Source: Lutibacter sp. HS1-25 (lineage in GTDB: Bacteria; Bacteroidota; Bacteroidia; Flavobacteriales; Flavobacteriaceae). Taken from it: 64,000 bases of DNA. A program made the translations under genes and the position numbers. Each line of letters starts with the position of its first letter. The stretch's first letter is position 1. The notes under the pieces are model-generated. The model worked only from the letters and a program-made list of their open reading frames with translations, had not been told where the DNA came from and ran no database searches. Below, piece after piece: positions 19,549-32,306 of the stretch. Where the stretch lies: the NCBI RefSeq assembly GCF_004121075.1, contig NZ_RHLN01000005.1, forward strand, positions 1 to 64,000, in the 5' to 3' direction.

Positions 19549-20715
19549 ATGATTAAAGTAGGTTTACTTGACGGACAAACAATTCAGGCATTGATATTTG
19601 CCAAACAGCTTAAAAAAGCTGGATATAGTGTTACGTTATTTTGTGACACTAAATTGTCTTATGGATACCATACAAGATATGCGGCTCATAAAGTTTTAGC
19701 GCCTTCAACACAACATGAAACTTTAGAGTTTCATAAATTTCTTTTAAACTTTTTGAATAATAATAAATTGGATGTAATTGTTCCAATGAACGATTATTCA
19801 GCAAAATATTTAAGCGAAAATAAAGAAGAATTACAAAAATTAGTTCGTTTTTTAATACCTGATAAAGATGTATTTATGAAAGGTTATGATAAAAATAAAT
19901 TGATGAAAATTTGTAATCAAAATCATTTTCCACATCCAAAAACAATAGATCTTTCAGCTTTAAATAAAGGTGAAGTAGTCTCAAATTTTACATTTCCAGC
20001 TTTAATAAAACCCAATGAAACTACAGGTGCTCGTGGATTTATGAAAGTAAATTCTTTTGACGAATTGTGGTTAAATTACGATGCTATTTTTAATGAATTT
20101 GGTCATTGCCATTTGCAAGAATTTATTCCGCCAGGTGGAAAGCAATATAAAGTTCAAATTTTAATAAAAGATCAATTAGTTATAGATAGCACAGTAATAG
20201 AAAAAATACGATTTTACCCAATTCAGGGTGGTAGTAGTTGTTTTAATAAAACTATTATAAACCACAATTTGGTAACTATTTGTACAAATGTTTTGAAAGT
20301 AATTAATTGGGAAGGTTTTGCTGATTTTGATTTGATTGAAGACCCTAGAAATGGCGATATTAGTATTATGGAAATAAACCCTAGAGTACCTGCTTGTATA
20401 AAAGCTTCGGTAGTTTCAGGAATCGATTTTCCAAATGCAATTGTAGCTTTATCTTTAAATAAAAATACAACAAAATACACCTATAAACCAGATAAGTATT
20501 TGAGGTATTTTAGTATGGATTTACTTTGGTTGTTTTCAAATAAAAATAAATTACCAGCATTTAAAAACTGGGCTAAAAAACTATTTTCAGCAAAACATTA
20601 TTTGCAAGATGGCGATTTATTGGATCCATTGCCATTTGTAATTGGATCTTATGCAGGTTTGGTAAAGCAGTTAAATCCTAAATTTAGGGAACAAAAAAAA
20701 GGAATGAATATATGA
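19549..20715 (+). CDS. ATP-grasp ligase (carboxylate-amine ligase type)
   Basis: The 388-residue protein has the three parts of an ATP-grasp fold: an N-terminal Rossmann-like domain (KVGLLDGQTIQALIFAKQL), the ATP lid with FPALIKPNETTGARGF at about 150-165 (binding Lys), and the metal-binding MEINPRVPACIKASVVSG at about 280. These enzymes form an amide or ester through an acyl-phosphate. In a polysaccharide locus it may attach an amino acid or other acid to a sugar (inference). It overlaps the deacetylase gene by 4 bp (ATGA), suggesting that the two act together. Confidence 0.87.
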   Translation: MIKVGLLDGQTIQALIFAKQLKKAGYSVTLFCDTKLSYGYHTRYAAHKVLAPSTQHETLEFHKFLLNFLNNNKLDVIVPMNDYSAKYLSENKEELQKLVRFLIPDKDVFMKGYDKNKLMKICNQNHFPHPKTIDLSALNKGEVVSNFTFPALIKPNETTGARGFMKVNSFDELWLNYDAIFNEFGHCHLQEFIPPGGKQYKVQILIKDQLVIDSTVIEKIRFYPIQGGSSCFNKTIINHNLVTICTNVLKVINWEGFADFDLIEDPRNGDISIMEINPRVPACIKASVVSGIDFPNAIVALSLNKNTTKYTYKPDKYLRYFSMDLLWLFSNKNKLPAFKNWAKKLFSAKHYLQDGDLLDPLPFVIGSYAGLVKQLNPKFREQKKGMNI

Positions 20716-25952: not shown

Positions 25953-27248
25953 TTATTTCAATAAAAAATCTTTTAATTCATTGTAAGTAGAAATTTCTAT
26001 CGCTATTTTATCCTTTTCAATAACTTCTAAAATTTGTGGAGGAAATTCAATTGTTTCATTTAAAACAGGTTCAACAACATCTAAAAATTTTACAGGATGC
26101 GCTGTTTCTAAAAATATACCTTGCGCACTGTTAGCGTGTAAATATTTTTTCAATCCTAAATAACCAACTGCACCATGTGGATCTGCAATATAACCTGAAA
26201 TTTTCTTAATTTCTTTCATTGCATCACGTGTTTCATCATCAGTAAAAGCATAAGAAGAAAGGTGTTTTTTCAACAATTCATCATTGTTTCCATAAATTTC
26301 TTGAATACGAATAAAATTACTTGGATCACCAACATCCATCGCATTTGAAATAGTTTGTTTAGATGGTTTTGGAGTGTATATGCCTGTTTCTAAGTAATTT
26401 GGAACAATGTCGTTGATATTTGTTGAAGCTACAAAATGTTCAATAGGCAATCCTAGTTGTTGAGCCATCATACCTGCACAAATATTACCAAAGTTTCCGC
26501 TTGGTATAGAAAAAACTAATTTTTTCTTTTTATTTTTAAGTTGCTTGTACGCAAAAAAGAAATAAAACATTTGTGGTAACCAACGAGCAACGTTAATTGA
26601 GTTTGCTGAAGTTAAATTTTTAGAATTGATTAATTCAGGATCTAAAAAGGCTGTTTTAACCATAGCCTGACAGTTGTCAAATGTGCCATTAACCTCTAAA
26701 GCTTTGATATTTTGACCTAAAGTTGTTAACTGTTTTTCTTGTACATCACTAACTTTTCCGCTTGGATATAAAATAACCACATCAACACCATCAACACCTA
26801 AAAAACCACTAGCAACTGCACCTCCAGTATCTCCTGAAGTAGCAACTAAAACAGTAACTTTTGTAGCATCTTTGGCTTCTTTATTAAAATAGCCAAAACA
26901 ACGAGCCATAAATCTAGCCCCAACATCTTTAAAAGCCATTGTTGGGCCGTGGAATAATTCTAAACTAGAAATATTTTTTTCAATTTCAACAACAGGAAAA
27001 TCAAAACACAATGTTTCATTAATTATTTCTTTTAATTCTTTTTCAGGAATTTCATCACCCACAAACTGTTTAATTACTTCATAAGCAATTTCTTCATTTG
27101 AAAAATATTCAATATGGTTGAAAAAATCTTTTGATAAAGGTGTAATACTTTCAGGAAAATACAAGCCTTTATCAGGAGCTAATCCTTTAATTACGGCATC
27201 TTTAAAAGATACATTAGGTGCTTTTTTATTTAAACTATAATAGTTCAT
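25953..27248 (-). CDS. thrC: Threonine synthase
   Basis: Converts O-phosphohomoserine to threonine, the last step of the pathway. It is a PLP enzyme of 431 residues. FHGPTMAFKDVGARF carries the cofactor Lys (K107), ATSGDTGGAV is the PLP phosphate-binding segment and SIPSGNFGNICAGMMAQ the second conserved block. It follows thrB after 82 nt; in the gap GAGTCTA and TAGACTC (27273-27279 and 27300-27306) form an inverted repeat that may control processing or translation. The terminator at 25881 ends the operon. Confidence 0.97.
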   Translation of the reverse strand: MNYYSLNKKAPNVSFKDAVIKGLAPDKGLYFPESITPLSKDFFNHIEYFSNEEIAYEVIKQFVGDEIPEKELKEIINETLCFDFPVVEIEKNISSLELFHGPTMAFKDVGARFMARCFGYFNKEAKDATKVTVLVATSGDTGGAVASGFLGVDGVDVVILYPSGKVSDVQEKQLTTLGQNIKALEVNGTFDNCQAMVKTAFLDPELINSKNLTSANSINVARWLPQMFYFFFAYKQLKNKKKKLVFSIPSGNFGNICAGMMAQQLGLPIEHFVASTNINDIVPNYLETGIYTPKPSKQTISNAMDVGDPSNFIRIQEIYGNNDELLKKHLSSYAFTDDETRDAMKEIKKISGYIADPHGAVGYLGLKKYLHANSAQGIFLETAHPVKFLDVVEPVLNETIEFPPQILEVIEKDKIAIEISTYNELKDFLLK

Positions 27249-27330: not shown

Positions 27331-28254
27331 TTAACTAAGAACTTTAATTCCTTGTTTATTTATTTTTGAAATATGAATATCGTAATCAATTCCAACTTTT
27401 TCATAGACAGATTTCATAGATTCTGCTACTTTAATAGCTGTTTCTTCGCCTTTGCTCAATGCAAAAATTGAAGGTCCCGAACCAGAAATACCACAACCCA
27501 ATGCGCCAGCTTTTAAAGAATTTTGTTTAACAGCGTCGTAAGCAGGAATTAATATTGAGCGAATTGGTTCAATAATATAATCTTCTAACGATCTTCCAAT
27601 TAAATCGTAATCTTCAGTATATAAGCCACTTATCAATCCTCCAACATTTCCCCATTGTTTAATTGCATCTTTTAAAGGAATATTGGTTTTTAAAATTTCA
27701 CGAGCATCAGAAGTTTTAACTTCAATTTGAGGGTGAATTACAGTTGCATACAATTCACTTGGTGTATTTATGCTTATAATATCTAAAGGTTGAGAACTTC
27801 TAACCAAAGTAAAACCGCCAAAAAGGGCAGGAGCTACGTTATCTGCGTGAGCAACACCTGTAGCTAAACGTTCACCTTCCATAGCAAAACGAACCAAATC
27901 TGTGTTACCAAAAGGTTTTCCAAGTAATTCATTAATAGCCCAAACAGCGCCTGCAGAACTTGCAGCGCTACTACCAATACCACTTCCAGGTTTTATACGT
28001 TTGTCTATTTCAATTTCAAAACCAAAATCGGTTTCAGTTTCAGCTAGTAGTGCCAAAGCTGCTACTCCAGCTACGTTATTTAAAGTTTCTAAAGGTAATT
28101 TTTGACCAATAATTTTGGTAATTACAACACCTTTTTTTGAGACTTTACGAATGGTCATTTCATCACCAACTGTATCTAAAGCCAAACCCAAAACATCAAA
28201 ACCACACGAAACATTCGCTATAGTTGCAGGGCAAAATATTTTTAGTTCATTCAT
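27331..28254 (-). CDS. thrB: Homoserine kinase
   Basis: Phosphorylates homoserine with ATP. A 307-residue GHMP kinase with the phosphate loop PGSGIGSSAASSAGAVWA at about residues 89-106, the N-terminal ATIANVSCGFDVLGLA and the C-terminal GALGCGISGSGPSIFAL, all at the family positions. It begins 3 nt after the thrA stop and is coupled to it. It lies in the order thrA-thrB-thrC known from enterobacteria. Confidence 0.97.
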   Translation of the reverse strand: MNELKIFCPATIANVSCGFDVLGLALDTVGDEMTIRKVSKKGVVITKIIGQKLPLETLNNVAGVAALALLAETETDFGFEIEIDKRIKPGSGIGSSAASSAGAVWAINELLGKPFGNTDLVRFAMEGERLATGVAHADNVAPALFGGFTLVRSSQPLDIISINTPSELYATVIHPQIEVKTSDAREILKTNIPLKDAIKQWGNVGGLISGLYTEDYDLIGRSLEDYIIEPIRSILIPAYDAVKQNSLKAGALGCGISGSGPSIFALSKGEETAIKVAESMKSVYEKVGIDYDIHISKINKQGIKVLS

Positions 28255-28257
28255 AAT

Positions 28258-30702
28258 TTAATTGTTTCCAATTCTAATAATATCTGCAAATAAACCAGAG
28301 GCAGTTACATCTGCACCTGCTCCGGCACCTTTTATAATTAAAGGTTGTTTGCTATACCTTTCAGTAAAAAACAGTACAATATTATCGCTTCCATCTAAAT
28401 TGTAAAATGGATGATCTGACGGAATTTCTTTTAAACTAACATTTGCAGTTCCATTGTCAAATTCAGCAACTACTTTTAATCTGCAATTATTTGCTGCAGC
28501 TTTTTGTTGAATTTTATTGAAATGATCTGCTTCAGATACTAAAGTTTCTAAAAAATCAGGAACAGAAACAGCATCTAATGAAGCTTGAGGTAAAAACGAA
28601 TTATTTTTAATATCGCTCAATTCTAATTTTGTTCCGCTTTCACGTGCTAAAATTAAAATCTTTCTCATTACATCAATTCCACTTAAATCAATTCGTGGAT
28701 CTGGTTCAGTATAACCTTCAATACCAGCTTGTTTTACAACTTCAGAAAAAGAATTTTTTTCATCAAAATTATTAAATATAAAGTTTAAGCTACCCGACAG
28801 AACTGCCTGTATTTTAGTTACTTTATCTCCAGATGCAACTAAGTTTTTAAGTGTGTCAATTATTGGTAAACCTGCACCTACATTTGTTTCAAATAAGAAA
28901 GGAGCATCATATTCTCTAGCCAATTGTTTTAAATGTTGATAGTTTGTATATTCTGATGAACAAGCAATTTTATTACACGTTACAACAGCAACACTTTCTT
29001 TTAAATAAGTCGCATATAAACTAGCAACACTTTCATTTGCAGTATTGTCTACAAAAACACTGTTTCTAAAGTTTAATTCGGTAACCTTATTATGAAATAA
29101 ATCCATATCCAAAGTTTCACCTTTATCTAATGCAGCTTTCCAATTATCTAAATCAATGCCATCTTCATTAAAAGCCATTTTTCTAGAATTTGTTAAAGCT
29201 ATAACACGTACCTGAAGTTTTAAATTCTCTAATAAATATTGTTGTTGTTTTTTAATTTGCTCAATTAATTTACCACCAACATTACCAACACCAACAACAA
29301 ATAAATTCAATTGTTTGGTTTGATTTTCAAAAAAAGTAGCGTGTAATGCGTTTAATGCTTTTTTAATGTCTTTATGTAAAATAACTGCTGAAATATTTTT
29401 TTCTGATGCACCTTGCGCAATTGCTCTTATGTTTACGTTATTACGTCCTAAAGTGCTAAACATTTTACCGCTAATACCTTGGTGACTTTTCATATTATCG
29501 CCAACCAAGGCAATAATTGCGTTGTCTTTTTCAATTTTTAATGGATCAATTTTGTGCTGTTCCATTTCATAATTAAACTCATTTTCTATGGCTTCTTTAG
29601 CTTTTTCAACATCTGTAGTGCTAATTGCAATACAAATTGAATGTTCTGAAGATGCTTGTGTTATTAATGAAATATTTATTTTTTGTTCAGAAAGTGCCCC
29701 AAATAATCGTCTGGAAAAACCAGGAATACCAACCATTCCGCTACCTTCTAAAGTAATTAATGTCATATTTTCAATATGACTAATACCTTTTATAGGATTT
29801 TTATTTGAAGAAACCTTTGTAATTAAAGTACCTTCAGCATTGGCATCAAATGTATTTTTAATACAAATTGGAATTTCTTTTTTTAATACCGGTTGAATAG
29901 TAGGAGGATAAAGTACTTTTGCTCCAAAGTGAGAAAGTTCCATAGCCTCTTGGTACGAAATATTTTTGATTGGAAATGCTTCTTTTACAACTTTTGGATT
30001 TGCTGTAAACATACCGCTTACGTCTGTCCAAATTTCTAAAACTGTTGCATTTACTGCAGCGGCAATAATTGCAGCAGTGTAATCTGAACCACCACGACCT
30101 AAAGTAGAGACTTCACCACTTTCAGTTTTCGCAACAAAACCAGGTAAAATAATGATTTTATGCTCATTTTGTTTGAAAAAAGATTCTATTGCAATGTTTG
30201 TTTTATCAAATTTTACAGCAGCATTAGAAAAATGATCATTGGTAACAATTAGTTCTTGTGTATTTTTTAATTGAGCATCTAAGTTGTTGTTTTTAAATGC
30301 CTCAGAAATAATGTAAGACGATAGCAATTCACCATAACTTACAATTTTATCTGAAGTTTTTGATGACAATTCGTTGATTAAAAAAACACCTTCTAGCGTT
30401 GTTTCTAACTTATTCAACATTTTTTTAACCTGCCCCAATACACCACTTTGATTGTTGATAGGAATTAACTCTCTAACAATTTGCAAGTGTCTTTCTTCAA
30501 TAGCTTTGAAACAGTTTTTATAGCTTTCATCACCTTTACAAGCTAAATTTCCTGCATCTAATAACAAATCTGTAACACCTCCTAAAGCAGAAACCACAAC
30601 AGCTACATTGTTTTTTAATGCGCTGTCTTTTACAATACTTATTACGTTATCAATACTTTCTGATGACGCAACGGATGAACCTCCAAATTTTAATACTTTC
30701 AT
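28258..30702 (-). CDS. thrA: Bifunctional aspartokinase / homoserine dehydrogenase
   Basis: An 814-residue fusion that supplies homoserine for Thr and Met. The aspartokinase part (about 1-290) begins MKVLKFGGSSVAS and has GRGGSDYTAA; two ACT regulatory domains (about 310-450, including GSGMVGIPGFSRRLFGALS) follow; the homoserine dehydrogenase part starts with the Rossmann motif VVGVGNVGGKL at about 470 and includes the NKIA, GLPIIDTLK and GYTEPDPRIDLSG segments. ACT domains suggest feedback inhibition by threonine. The leader region upstream contains a Thr-rich leader peptide and a terminator-like stem. Confidence 0.97.
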   Translation of the reverse strand: MKVLKFGGSSVASSESIDNVISIVKDSALKNNVAVVVSALGGVTDLLLDAGNLACKGDESYKNCFKAIEERHLQIVRELIPINNQSGVLGQVKKMLNKLETTLEGVFLINELSSKTSDKIVSYGELLSSYIISEAFKNNNLDAQLKNTQELIVTNDHFSNAAVKFDKTNIAIESFFKQNEHKIIILPGFVAKTESGEVSTLGRGGSDYTAAIIAAAVNATVLEIWTDVSGMFTANPKVVKEAFPIKNISYQEAMELSHFGAKVLYPPTIQPVLKKEIPICIKNTFDANAEGTLITKVSSNKNPIKGISHIENMTLITLEGSGMVGIPGFSRRLFGALSEQKINISLITQASSEHSICIAISTTDVEKAKEAIENEFNYEMEQHKIDPLKIEKDNAIIALVGDNMKSHQGISGKMFSTLGRNNVNIRAIAQGASEKNISAVILHKDIKKALNALHATFFENQTKQLNLFVVGVGNVGGKLIEQIKKQQQYLLENLKLQVRVIALTNSRKMAFNEDGIDLDNWKAALDKGETLDMDLFHNKVTELNFRNSVFVDNTANESVASLYATYLKESVAVVTCNKIACSSEYTNYQHLKQLAREYDAPFLFETNVGAGLPIIDTLKNLVASGDKVTKIQAVLSGSLNFIFNNFDEKNSFSEVVKQAGIEGYTEPDPRIDLSGIDVMRKILILARESGTKLELSDIKNNSFLPQASLDAVSVPDFLETLVSEADHFNKIQQKAAANNCRLKVVAEFDNGTANVSLKEIPSDHPFYNLDGSDNIVLFFTERYSKQPLIIKGAGAGADVTASGLFADIIRIGNN

Positions 30703-30720: not shown

Positions 30721-30842
30721 AAAAAATCGGTTATTTAAAACCTATTTTATCAATTTAATTTTTAAATATTGTGCAATATTCTTTGGTTTCAAATTTATGA
30801 AAACGAATATAGATATACGGATAATATGATAGAATATAACCC
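30721..30842 (-). promoter_or_regulatory. Threonine attenuator: alternative hairpins and terminator ahead of thrA
   Basis: On the minus strand the arms AATAGGTT (30746-30739) and AACCGATT (30732-30725) form a stem with one A/G mismatch and a run of six T, a weak intrinsic terminator 20 nt before thrA. Two alternative partners exist: GGTTAT at 30841-30836, right after the leader stop, is complementary to ATAACC of the right arm (30734-30729), and GAAACC at 30790-30785 can pair with GGTTTT of the left arm. There are also palindromes at 30888-30904 and 30765-30780. This fits ribosome-controlled attenuation; pairing energies were not computed. Confidence 0.6.
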
Positions 30843-30938
30843 CTAAAGGGTTGTTGTGGTAGTTGTAGTAGTAACAATAGTTAAGTTATGCAATAATATT
30901 GCATTTTGTAATAACTTATATACGCTTGTTTTTTTCAC
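30843..30938 (-). CDS. thrL: Threonine operon leader peptide
   Basis: On the minus strand a GTG at 30938 opens 31 codons closed by TAG (30845-30843), 140 nt ahead of thrA. The peptide begins MKKTSVYKLLQ and its tail reads Ile-Val followed by eight consecutive Thr codons (ACT, ACT, ACA, ACT, ACC, ACA, ACA, ACC) and Leu. A run of eight Thr codons is the layout of an attenuation leader that senses charged tRNA-Thr, as in enterobacterial thrL. An in-frame TGA lies two codons upstream of GTG, which fixes the start region. It is too short for usual gene callers. Confidence 0.85.
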   Translation of the reverse strand: MKKTSVYKLLQNAILLHNLTIVTTTTTTTTL

Positions 30939-30942
30939 AATT

Positions 30943-30950
30943 CAAAAATA
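30943..30950 (-). promoter_or_regulatory. -7 element of the thr operon
   Basis: TATTTTTG on the minus strand matches TAnnTTTG and ends 4 nt before the GTG of the leader peptide, so the transcript may be leaderless. A clear TTG 17-20 nt upstream is missing, so this is moderate evidence. Confidence 0.4.
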
Positions 30951-31058
30951 GCTATTTTTTTTAAAAACTGTATAATTTTAATGAAATTTATTAAAAGTTA
31001 CATGTTTTTCTACAAAAACTACATTCTAATCAATATTTTAAAGAACTTTTATGAAATC

Positions 31059-31092
31059 AAAAAGACTCCGAATATGAGGTCGGAGTCTTTTT
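31059..31092 (-). terminator. Terminator of lysA
   Basis: AAAAAGACTCCGA (31059-31071) and TCGGAGTCTTTTT (31080-31092) form a 13-bp stem with an 8-nt loop and T runs on both strands. It stands directly downstream of lysA on the minus strand. Confidence 0.92.
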
Positions 31093-31100
31093 TAACACTA

Positions 31101-32306
31101 CTATAAATCTATGATTATTTGATTTTTTAATAAATCATCAAAAGTCTCACGTTTTCTAATTAAATAATCTTCACCTTTATAAACCAAAACTTCAGCAGGT
31201 CTATATCTAGAGTTGTAATTTGAAGCCATAGAGAAACTATATGCTCCTGCATTGTGGATACAAAGCAAATCATTTTCTGAAATTTTACTGATACTTCTGT
31301 TAGATCCAAAAGTGTCATTTTCACAAATATAACCTACAATATCGTATATTTTTTCATCTCCATCTGGATTTGAAATATTTGTAATATGATGGTAAGCATC
31401 GTACATCATAGGACGAATTAAATGGTTTAAACCACTATCAACACCTATAAAAAGAATATTTGGAGTTGGTTTTACAACATTTACTTTAACAATTAAACTT
31501 CCAGATGCACTTACTAAAAACTTTCCTGGTTCAAAAATAAGAGTTAAATCTCTACCATATTCAACACAAAAATCATTAAAACGTTTGCTTAAAGTTTCTC
31601 CCATTTCTTCGATATTGGTTTCAATATCACCTTCTTTATAAGGTACTTTAAAACCACTTCCAAAGTCAACAAACTCAATAGAATCAAACTCTTTAACAGT
31701 GTTTAATAAAATTTCTGTTGCATTTAAAAATGCTTCAATGTTATAAATATCAGAACCCGTATGCATGTGAATACCGTTGATTTTTAAACCAGTTTCATTC
31801 ACAATGTTTTTTACACTCTCAATTTGATGGATAGAAATACCAAATTTAGAATCGATATGACCTACAGAAATTTTATGATTTCCACCAGCCATTACGTGAG
31901 GATTGATACGCAAACAAGCTGGAGTATTTGGATATTTATTTCCGAATTTTTTTAAAACAGAAAGACTGTCTAGTGTAATTTGAACTCCCAAAGCATTGGC
32001 ATCTTCCATTTCTTCAAAAGAAATACCACTAGGCGTGAAGAAAATGTCTTTAACGTTAAAACCGGATTCAATAGCCAATTTTACTTCTTGAATAGAAACA
32101 CAATCTACACCTGCATTTAAGTTATTTAACAACTTTAAAATCGAAATATTTGAATTTGCCTTTACAGCATAGTTGATTTTTAGTTGTTTTACTGTTGAAA
32201 ATGCATTTTTCATACGATTGTATTGCGCTTCAATTTTTTGCGCATCGTATACATATAAAGGGCTTCCGTATTTTTCTGCAAGCCTTAGAAGTGATTGATT
32301 GTTCAT
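31101..32306 (-). CDS. lysA: Diaminopimelate decarboxylase
   Basis: Decarboxylates meso-diaminopimelate to L-lysine. A PLP barrel enzyme of 401 residues: the cofactor Lys is in INYAVKANSN at about residue 49, GIHMHTGSDI at about 180 and FGSGFKVPY at about 220 bind the phosphate, EPGKFLVSASG at about 265 is next, and CIHNAGAYSFSMASNYN near 360 closes the active site. It stands alone with its own terminator; TACATTTG at 32334-32327 upstream may be its -7 box. Proximity to thrA is notable because both start from the aspartate pathway. Confidence 0.97.
   Translation of the reverse strand: MNNQSLLRLAEKYGSPLYVYDAQKIEAQYNRMKNAFSTVKQLKINYAVKANSNISILKLLNNLNAGVDCVSIQEVKLAIESGFNVKDIFFTPSGISFEEMEDANALGVQITLDSLSVLKKFGNKYPNTPACLRINPHVMAGGNHKISVGHIDSKFGISIHQIESVKNIVNETGLKINGIHMHTGSDIYNIEAFLNATEILLNTVKEFDSIEFVDFGSGFKVPYKEGDIETNIEEMGETLSKRFNDFCVEYGRDLTLIFEPGKFLVSASGSLIVKVNVVKPTPNILFIGVDSGLNHLIRPMMYDAYHHITNISNPDGDEKIYDIVGYICENDTFGSNRSISKISENDLLCIHNAGAYSFSMASNYNSRYRPAEVLVYKGEDYLIRKRETFDDLLKNQIIIDL

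Follow-up and report, generated by a model that had tools for sequence, protein, structure and literature searches.

In Escherichia coli, thrABC is preceded by thrL, a short leader open reading frame (ORF) in which Thr and Ile codons immediately precede the stop codon, and a classical switch of this type requires competing helices. We take the number of the corresponding Rfam family, Thr_leader, to be RF00506. Other upstream ORFs (uORFs), namely mgtL, corL, and tnaC, are Rho-dependent attenuators. An excerpt of PMC12121999 describes toiL, a uORF at which ribosome stalling governs expression and termination by Rho is premature; its signal is ribosome-targeting antibiotics, and its effect runs via translation of the next gene. 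In its excerpted text, PMC2965389, a 2010 report of a screen based on Rho-independent terminators, counts no leader peptide systems as known outside Proteobacteria and Actinobacteria besides its own Firmicutes case. Leader-like short ORFs in Bacteroides are mentioned in a passage of PMC7366714, and one of PMC4833913 refers to modelling work published in 2007 by Lyubetsky and co-workers, which may contain Bacteroidetes cases.

The window analyzed here, a 64,000-nt stretch of a Lutibacter genome, carries a leader peptide ORF of 31 codons plus TAG on its minus strand (30843..30938), which extends from GTG 30938 to TAG 30843 and reads MKKTSVYKLLQNAILLHNLTIVTTTTTTTTL before the stop. Near its end are eight consecutive Thr control codons (30849..30872, minus), which direct codon reading gives in the order ACT ACT ACA ACT ACC ACA ACA ACC from 30872 to 30849. 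The gap from the ORF to the thrA ATG at 30702 is 140 nt, and the downstream gene order is thrA, thrB, thrC, all on the minus strand. thrA (28258..30702), encoding a bifunctional aspartate kinase/homoserine dehydrogenase I, matches NF006959 with 1064.9 bits (cut-off, 726); thrB (27331..28254), encoding homoserine kinase, matches NF002288 with 410.8 bits and TIGR00191 with 231.7 bits, both above the cut-off; and thrC (25953..27248), encoding threonine synthase, matches TIGR00260 with 296.9 bits (cut-off, 167.1). The leader peptide itself matched no NCBIfam family. As at enterobacterial thrL, a short leader with Thr (or Thr and Ile) codons at its very end thus precedes thrABC. The earlier note had described a threonine-operon leader peptide with eight Thr codons in a row, from GTG 30938 to TAG 30843 and 140 nt before thrA, and the sequence confirms this. 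In a scan for runs of at least five Thr codons, the run of eight occurs once in the 64-kb window; the other run found, five ACN codons at 20241 on the minus strand, has no leader-like arrangement in its surroundings as read through. Directly upstream of the leader, also on the minus strand, lies a 401-aa ORF (31101–32306) resembling diaminopimelate decarboxylase (lysA), which is closed by a strong, bidirectional-looking terminator at about 31058–31092 (−14.4 kcal/mol).

The −7 promoter box TATTTTTG (TAnnTTTG; 30943..30950, minus) ends 4 nt before the leader GTG. As the TAnnTTTG element is placed at T−12 to G−5 in an excerpt of PMC6847099, this spacing predicts +1 on the G of the GTG, and, going by the predicted +1, the leader mRNA of the window may be leaderless. 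According to the same paper, 87% of predicted F. johnsoniae transcripts have more than 10 nt before the start, and Shine-Dalgarno sequences are naturally missing in Bacteroidota. At 27 of 30 Lutibacter loci, a TAnnTTTG box is followed at exactly 4 nt by an in-frame start codon (25 ATG and 2 GTG, the latter in the window and in L014), and this shared spacing supports the GTG as the start codon. Across the 157 loci with a leader described below, a perfect box lies no more than 30 nt from an in-frame ATG or GTG in 147; the spacing between box and start is exactly 4 nt in 35 loci and 16 to 22 nt in 76.

To assess conservation, we compared 176 thrA upstream regions, comprising 30 from Lutibacter (the window's own included), 17 that were left of 18 after L031 was dropped as the same stretch as L002, and 129 from a family search, which gave a thrA match at the cut-off in 202 of 249 genomes and from which the loci were taken among the matches listed. 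Over the last 200 nt, all 176 regions differ from one another, though many come from close relatives. The earlier note had suggested aligning this region among relatives, and the Thr-rich leader frame proved to be conserved: 157 of 176 loci have a Thr/Ile-rich frame ending at the hairpin sequence ACCC(C/T)...GGG, hereafter hairpin B. Counted over the last 13 leader codons, these 157 loci average 5.6 Thr and 2.05 Ile, against 0.17 and 0.03 Thr when the same stretch is read in the two other frames, a comparison that is partly circular because the loci were picked by a Thr/Ile score of at least 3 in the tested frame. None of the 157, selected on this frame, has a stop in the last 13 codons. Above hairpin B, the leader frame is open for at least 22 codons at 153 of the 157 loci, versus 34 and 88 for the other frames. 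The median leader length is 32 codons (147 loci with an assigned start), and the leader stop lies within +20 of the hairpin B start in 151 of 157. Only marginal sensing of Ile, as proposed before, fits this genome; at least one Ile codon is present among the last 13 in 128 of 157 loci and at least two in 97. By eye, hairpin B is still present in five (L138, L159, L163, L203, and L211) of the 19 loci that were not anchored; L046 seems to have diverged, L167 uses another platform, and no leader of this type was recognized in the other twelve. Judged by comparative sequence evidence, the leader peptide is real, since its conservation puts it far beyond chance; the same conservation lends no support to the terminator proposed in the earlier note. 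Three loci come from metagenome-assembled genome records (L036, L046, and L033) titled Klebsiella pneumoniae, Chitinophaga pinensis, and Lentimicrobium, respectively; these titles look wrong, and the thrA loci are Flavobacterium-like, with 61 to 63% identity to the query.

The earlier note had further claimed a weak terminator stem with six T just before thrA. The stem exists as sequence on the minus strand (30721..30746) and is weak, with −3.3 kcal/mol alone and −4.9 kcal/mol in 40 nt. What did not hold up is its conservation: no close copy occurs in the 29 other Lutibacter loci, the best match in each having at least 7 mismatches in 23 positions, and the stem is probably not functional. We then scanned for any hairpin directly before a T-rich stretch, scored in kcal/mol, with dinucleotide shuffles as the control. 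A score of −8 kcal/mol or better was reached by 3 of 157 thr regions, compared with 1.7% of 237 shuffles, and −10 by no thr region (157) and no shuffle (237). Between the leader and the first gene, hairpins that score as intrinsic terminators are therefore about as frequent as in shuffles. We also considered hairpin B as an intrinsic terminator and rejected it, given its weak stem and the 3 of 157 loci in which any hairpin plus T-rich stretch scores −8 or better; in L030, L137, L143, and a few others, hairpin B is the best terminator-scoring place, at about −6.

The scan readily detected terminators elsewhere in the same genomes. The controls came from eight genomes, four of Lutibacter (among them that of the window) and four of Flavobacterium, in which all eight his leaders (−16.5 to −18.2 kcal/mol) and all eight trp leaders (−12.8 to −19.8 kcal/mol) were followed by a terminator; in the window, the same scan gives −14.4 between the 401-aa ORF and the thr leader. 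Upstream of hisG (L089 to L096), an HHHH leader precedes the strong intrinsic terminator in 8 of 8 operons, an arrangement that we read as the classical His attenuator in Lutibacter and Flavobacterium. Upstream of trpE (L235 to L242), a WWW leader and a strong terminator likewise occur in 8 of 8. The his and trp leaders thus resemble the thr leader in having control codons near the stop (four His or three Trp) and differ from it in their strong intrinsic terminators (16 of 16). In the Flavobacterium trp loci, the leader stop region looks, by eye, complementary to the terminator arm. At ilvD, 2 of 9 loci (L232 and L233) clearly have a Val/Ile leader and a strong terminator immediately before the gene, the Lutibacter loci L228, L229, and L234 have a possible Val/Ile leader further upstream, and in the other four of the 9 no leader was recognized. 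One alternative reading of the thr leader is that it is constitutive, tuning translation or marking a short 5′ ORF without sensing threonine. Two observations speak against this reading, which we regard as highly improbable: in 157 of 176 loci, Thr and Ile codons are enriched immediately ahead of the stop, and parallel His and Trp leaders stand before the corresponding operons, each in 8 of 8 genomes.

In place of a terminator, a set of RNA features was found around the leader stop, all on the minus strand. Hairpin A (ATGCAAT/ATTGCAT; 30888..30904) is a fold inside the leader ORF. Hairpin B (AACCCT/GGGGTT; 30838..30852), which emerged from folds and alignments, has the stop UAG in its loop and 3′ arm; family-wide, it holds the leader stop codon or directly precedes it, and its arms are complementary to one another (z, −6.9). 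It is followed by the motif ATCATATTATCCGTA (30816..30830), with the family consensus YATATNNTYC or, in its longer form, T(A/T)YATATNNTYC, after which G is the commonest next base (42%). The motif starts at a median of +20 nt from ACCC, the hairpin B start (5th to 95th percentile, 19 to 23), and holds 9.8 bits of information versus 3.7 to 3.9 in shuffled sequence, a control that shuffled single bases and had fewer restarts than the real run. Its pairing with both neighbors is below that of permuted partners (z, +12.3 for the hairpin B 3′ arm and +7.6 for hairpin C), and it is therefore probably read single-stranded. Hairpin C (ATATTCGTTTTCA...TGAAACCAAAGAATAT; 30776..30810), identified by fold, covariation, and permutation, has no U-run after it. 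Where it was found (132 of 157 loci), its start lies at +41 (quartiles, 39 and 42) and its end a median of 41 nt upstream of thrA (quartiles, 39 and 44); in the window, it ends 74 nt before thrA. A usable hairpin C is missing in 25 of 157 loci, and it may thus be dispensable. Compared with dinucleotide shuffles, a test independent of the choice of hairpins, all three regions fold more stably over the 157 loci (mean z, −1.23 for A, −1.33 for B, and −1.14 for C).

Covariation was evaluated in alignments of subgroups. Alignments A3 (26 sequences) and A4 (13 sequences) were drawn from 63 nonredundant loci by hairpin type, a choice that favors hairpin C pairing. In A3, hairpin C showed 18 double-change cells versus 6.8 in shuffled data, and 92.0% of its cells were paired versus 31 to 53% in slid arrangements; pairs with a double change numbered 5, a value that 55 of 500 shuffles matched or exceeded, which makes this measure indecisive when taken by itself. 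In 15 Flavobacterium-type sequences (A2; 15 of the 17 loci, with L043 and L046 left out), RNAalifold gave all three hairpins (A, B, and C), and 5 of the 17 predicted pairs had changed on both sides. In 27 Lutibacter sequences (A1; 27 of the 30 loci, with L019, L022, and L028 left out as near duplicates), it predicted hairpin B only, with no counterpart of hairpin A, which either speaks against A and C in Lutibacter or reflects poor alignment. Single folds show both A and C in most of the 27 sequences, and the Lutibacter C arms match better than permuted arms, for hairpins that were chosen by fold. A DNA operator in place of an RNA hairpin C is disfavored, because the hairpin C arms change together. 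By these comparisons, what is conserved is hairpin B at the stop, the YATATNNTYC motif, and a covarying hairpin C, none of which featured in the earlier note.

To see how far this arrangement extends, we searched 198 Bacteroidia genomes, found a thrA match at E 1e-180 in 40, and read 27 loci, mostly by eye. Five of the 27 (L260, L272, L273, L274, and L278) have a Thr/Ile leader and a strong terminator, with scores of −16.0 to −22.5 kcal/mol for the last four; L276 is like the L260/L272 type with few Thr, and L270 has a terminator and no recognized leader. Hairpin B without a strong terminator after it occurs in L257, L261, and L265. By eye, L267, L268, and L269 have a hairpin of ACGGG and CCCGU with the loop GUAA or GUGA, which places the leader stop UAA or UGA inside a GNRA-like hairpin loop. 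L275 was ambiguous, and nothing was recognized in the rest of the 27. Within the Flavobacteriaceae, L167 combines the Thr leader MKHIITNTTTTTTGTS with a canonical terminator (−14.2 kcal/mol), and hairpin B in its usual sequence was not seen there. The thr leaders of L272, L273, L274, L278, and L167 thus share with ours a Thr/Ile codon leader before thrA and differ from it in having a GC hairpin plus U-run (−14.2 to −22.5 kcal/mol). The sensor appears to be kept while the platform differs between lineages.

These observations bear on whether the locus is a classical attenuator of the thrL type, in which a terminator stem before thrA competes with an antiterminator formed by segments after the stop. 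The window has the leader and the stems, strong terminators follow some other Bacteroidia thr leaders (L272, L273, L274, and L278), and the his and trp leaders of related genomes and of this one have strong terminators too. The competing partners named earlier, 30841–30836 and 30790–30785, likewise exist as sequence; in relatives they do not recur, GAAACC (30790–30785) being found after hairpin B in 0 of the 29 other Lutibacter loci. Among the thr leader segments, we looked for a competing pairing conserved across clades and found none. The Thr end pairs with the hairpin C 5′ arm with a z of −2.1 in a clade of 42 loci, which was picked by hairpin shape so that hairpin C pairing is favored, versus +1.1 in Lutibacter. 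Pairing of the leader start with the motif is suggestive in single loci only and was rejected as a general rule (z, −3.0 in a mixed group of 112, +0.8 in Lutibacter, and +0.1 in the Flavobacterium group). Pairing of the hairpin B 3′ arm with hairpin C, with a z of −5.6 over all loci, is weak within clades (−0.9 and +0.5 in the clade of 42; −1.6 and −1.5 in Lutibacter) and was taken as relatedness. With competing pairings that are not conserved, a stem without a close copy in the 29 other Lutibacter loci, and terminator scores of 157 loci that resemble shuffles, a thrL-type attenuator seems quite unlikely here. The enterobacterial terminator/antiterminator design that had been assigned to the locus is accordingly not supported, whereas the his and trp leaders of eight of these genomes do have strong terminators. 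Compared with thrL, the locus has no terminator above shuffle level and no conserved antiterminator that we could find, and it has instead a conserved hairpin at the stop and a sequence motif; it matches no Rfam family at the gathering threshold.

We consider it likely that thrABC is governed by a ribosome-mediated attenuator, in which a Thr/Ile-sensing leader is coupled to a conserved RNA output without a recognizable intrinsic terminator. The leader would sense charged tRNA-Thr and, in many relatives, tRNA-Ile as well; this sensing half is deduced from the control codons and their conservation. With enough threonine, the ribosome would run into hairpin B, end at the stop, and leave, and transcription or the transcript would be lost between hairpin C and early thrA. 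With threonine short, the ribosome would stall on the Thr run, which would change downstream folding or binding and allow thrABC to be expressed.

As to how expression would be lost, we rank factor-dependent termination as the most likely output and RNA processing next. Termination by Rho/Nus on hairpin B, the motif, and hairpin C is put forward tentatively, its chances being somewhat short of even. The appeal of Rho lies in the base composition of the 60 nt that follow hairpin B, which are rich in C (17.0%) and poor in G (9.3%). YC dinucleotides number 6.2 per 60 nt versus 2.5 in window controls, and C-minus-G maxima per 78 nt are 5 to 14 in his and trp leaders, with a median of 12 in thr leaders. 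Since these maxima are much the same in his and trp leaders, whose terminators are normal, we do not take the Rho-type signature as specific. Systems of the toiL type resemble the thr leader in their control by uORF stalling, Rho dependence of the thr leader being a candidate feature only; toiL differs in sensing ribosome-targeting antibiotics and in its output via translation of the next gene.

Alternatively, control could be posttranscriptional, with stalling on the Thr run altering cleavage, stability, or translation of the thrA message and the AU-rich motif serving as a processing or binding site. The conservation of the motif, its reduced pairing with neighbors relative to permuted partners, its position between hairpins B and C, and the lack of any terminator that stands out are all compatible with this reading. 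Against it, the median distance of 41 nt from hairpin C to the thrA ATG leaves the start codon unsequestered; for the same 132 loci, with hairpin C ending that far upstream, we did not find the start region in a conserved hairpin as in an ermC-type translational attenuator. Overall, posttranscriptional control appears rather unlikely, and attenuation with factor-dependent loss of transcription remains our preferred account. Extending it to the family, there is close to an even chance that in Flavobacteriaceae the thr terminator was replaced by a fixed-geometry element (hairpin at the stop codon, single-stranded YATATNNTYC motif, and second hairpin) by which a stalled ribosome would control thrABC via a trans-acting factor, with his and trp staying classical; this would be a new, lineage-wide type of amino acid attenuator.

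The element seems specific to thr leaders within the genomes searched. In the window and the loci of 19 relatives, no Rfam family, Thr_leader included, was found at the gathering threshold, and a search to E 10 returned a single match, to another family. A covariance model (R2) covering hairpin B and the following stretch (70 positions) was run on 20 genomes, the 150 best candidates being scored in each. In 15 genomes, the thr leader came out with an E of at most 0.05; the training sequences of the model came from 8 of the 20, 7 of them among the 15, and the nontraining genomes among the 15 were G135, G125, G185, G019, G172, G036, G011, and G032. The thr leader was weak in two further genomes (E 0.19 and 1.75) and not found in three. 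Elsewhere in the 20 genomes, the best place among the 150 best candidates per genome reached E 0.176. Other copies were also sought by pattern in 10 genomes, an approach that gave 95 matches versus 82 for the reversed control and was rejected. In the open-access literature, which leaves most subscription journals outside, we recognized no description of this element.

Searches based on terminators, such as the one in the excerpted text of PMC2965389, would be expected to miss an element of this kind, and the annotation of amino acid control in Bacteroidota is therefore probably incomplete. Our data suggest that a sensing principle can stay before the same operon while the output device is exchanged, and they provide a defined RNA element for studying the link between translation and gene expression in Bacteroidota.
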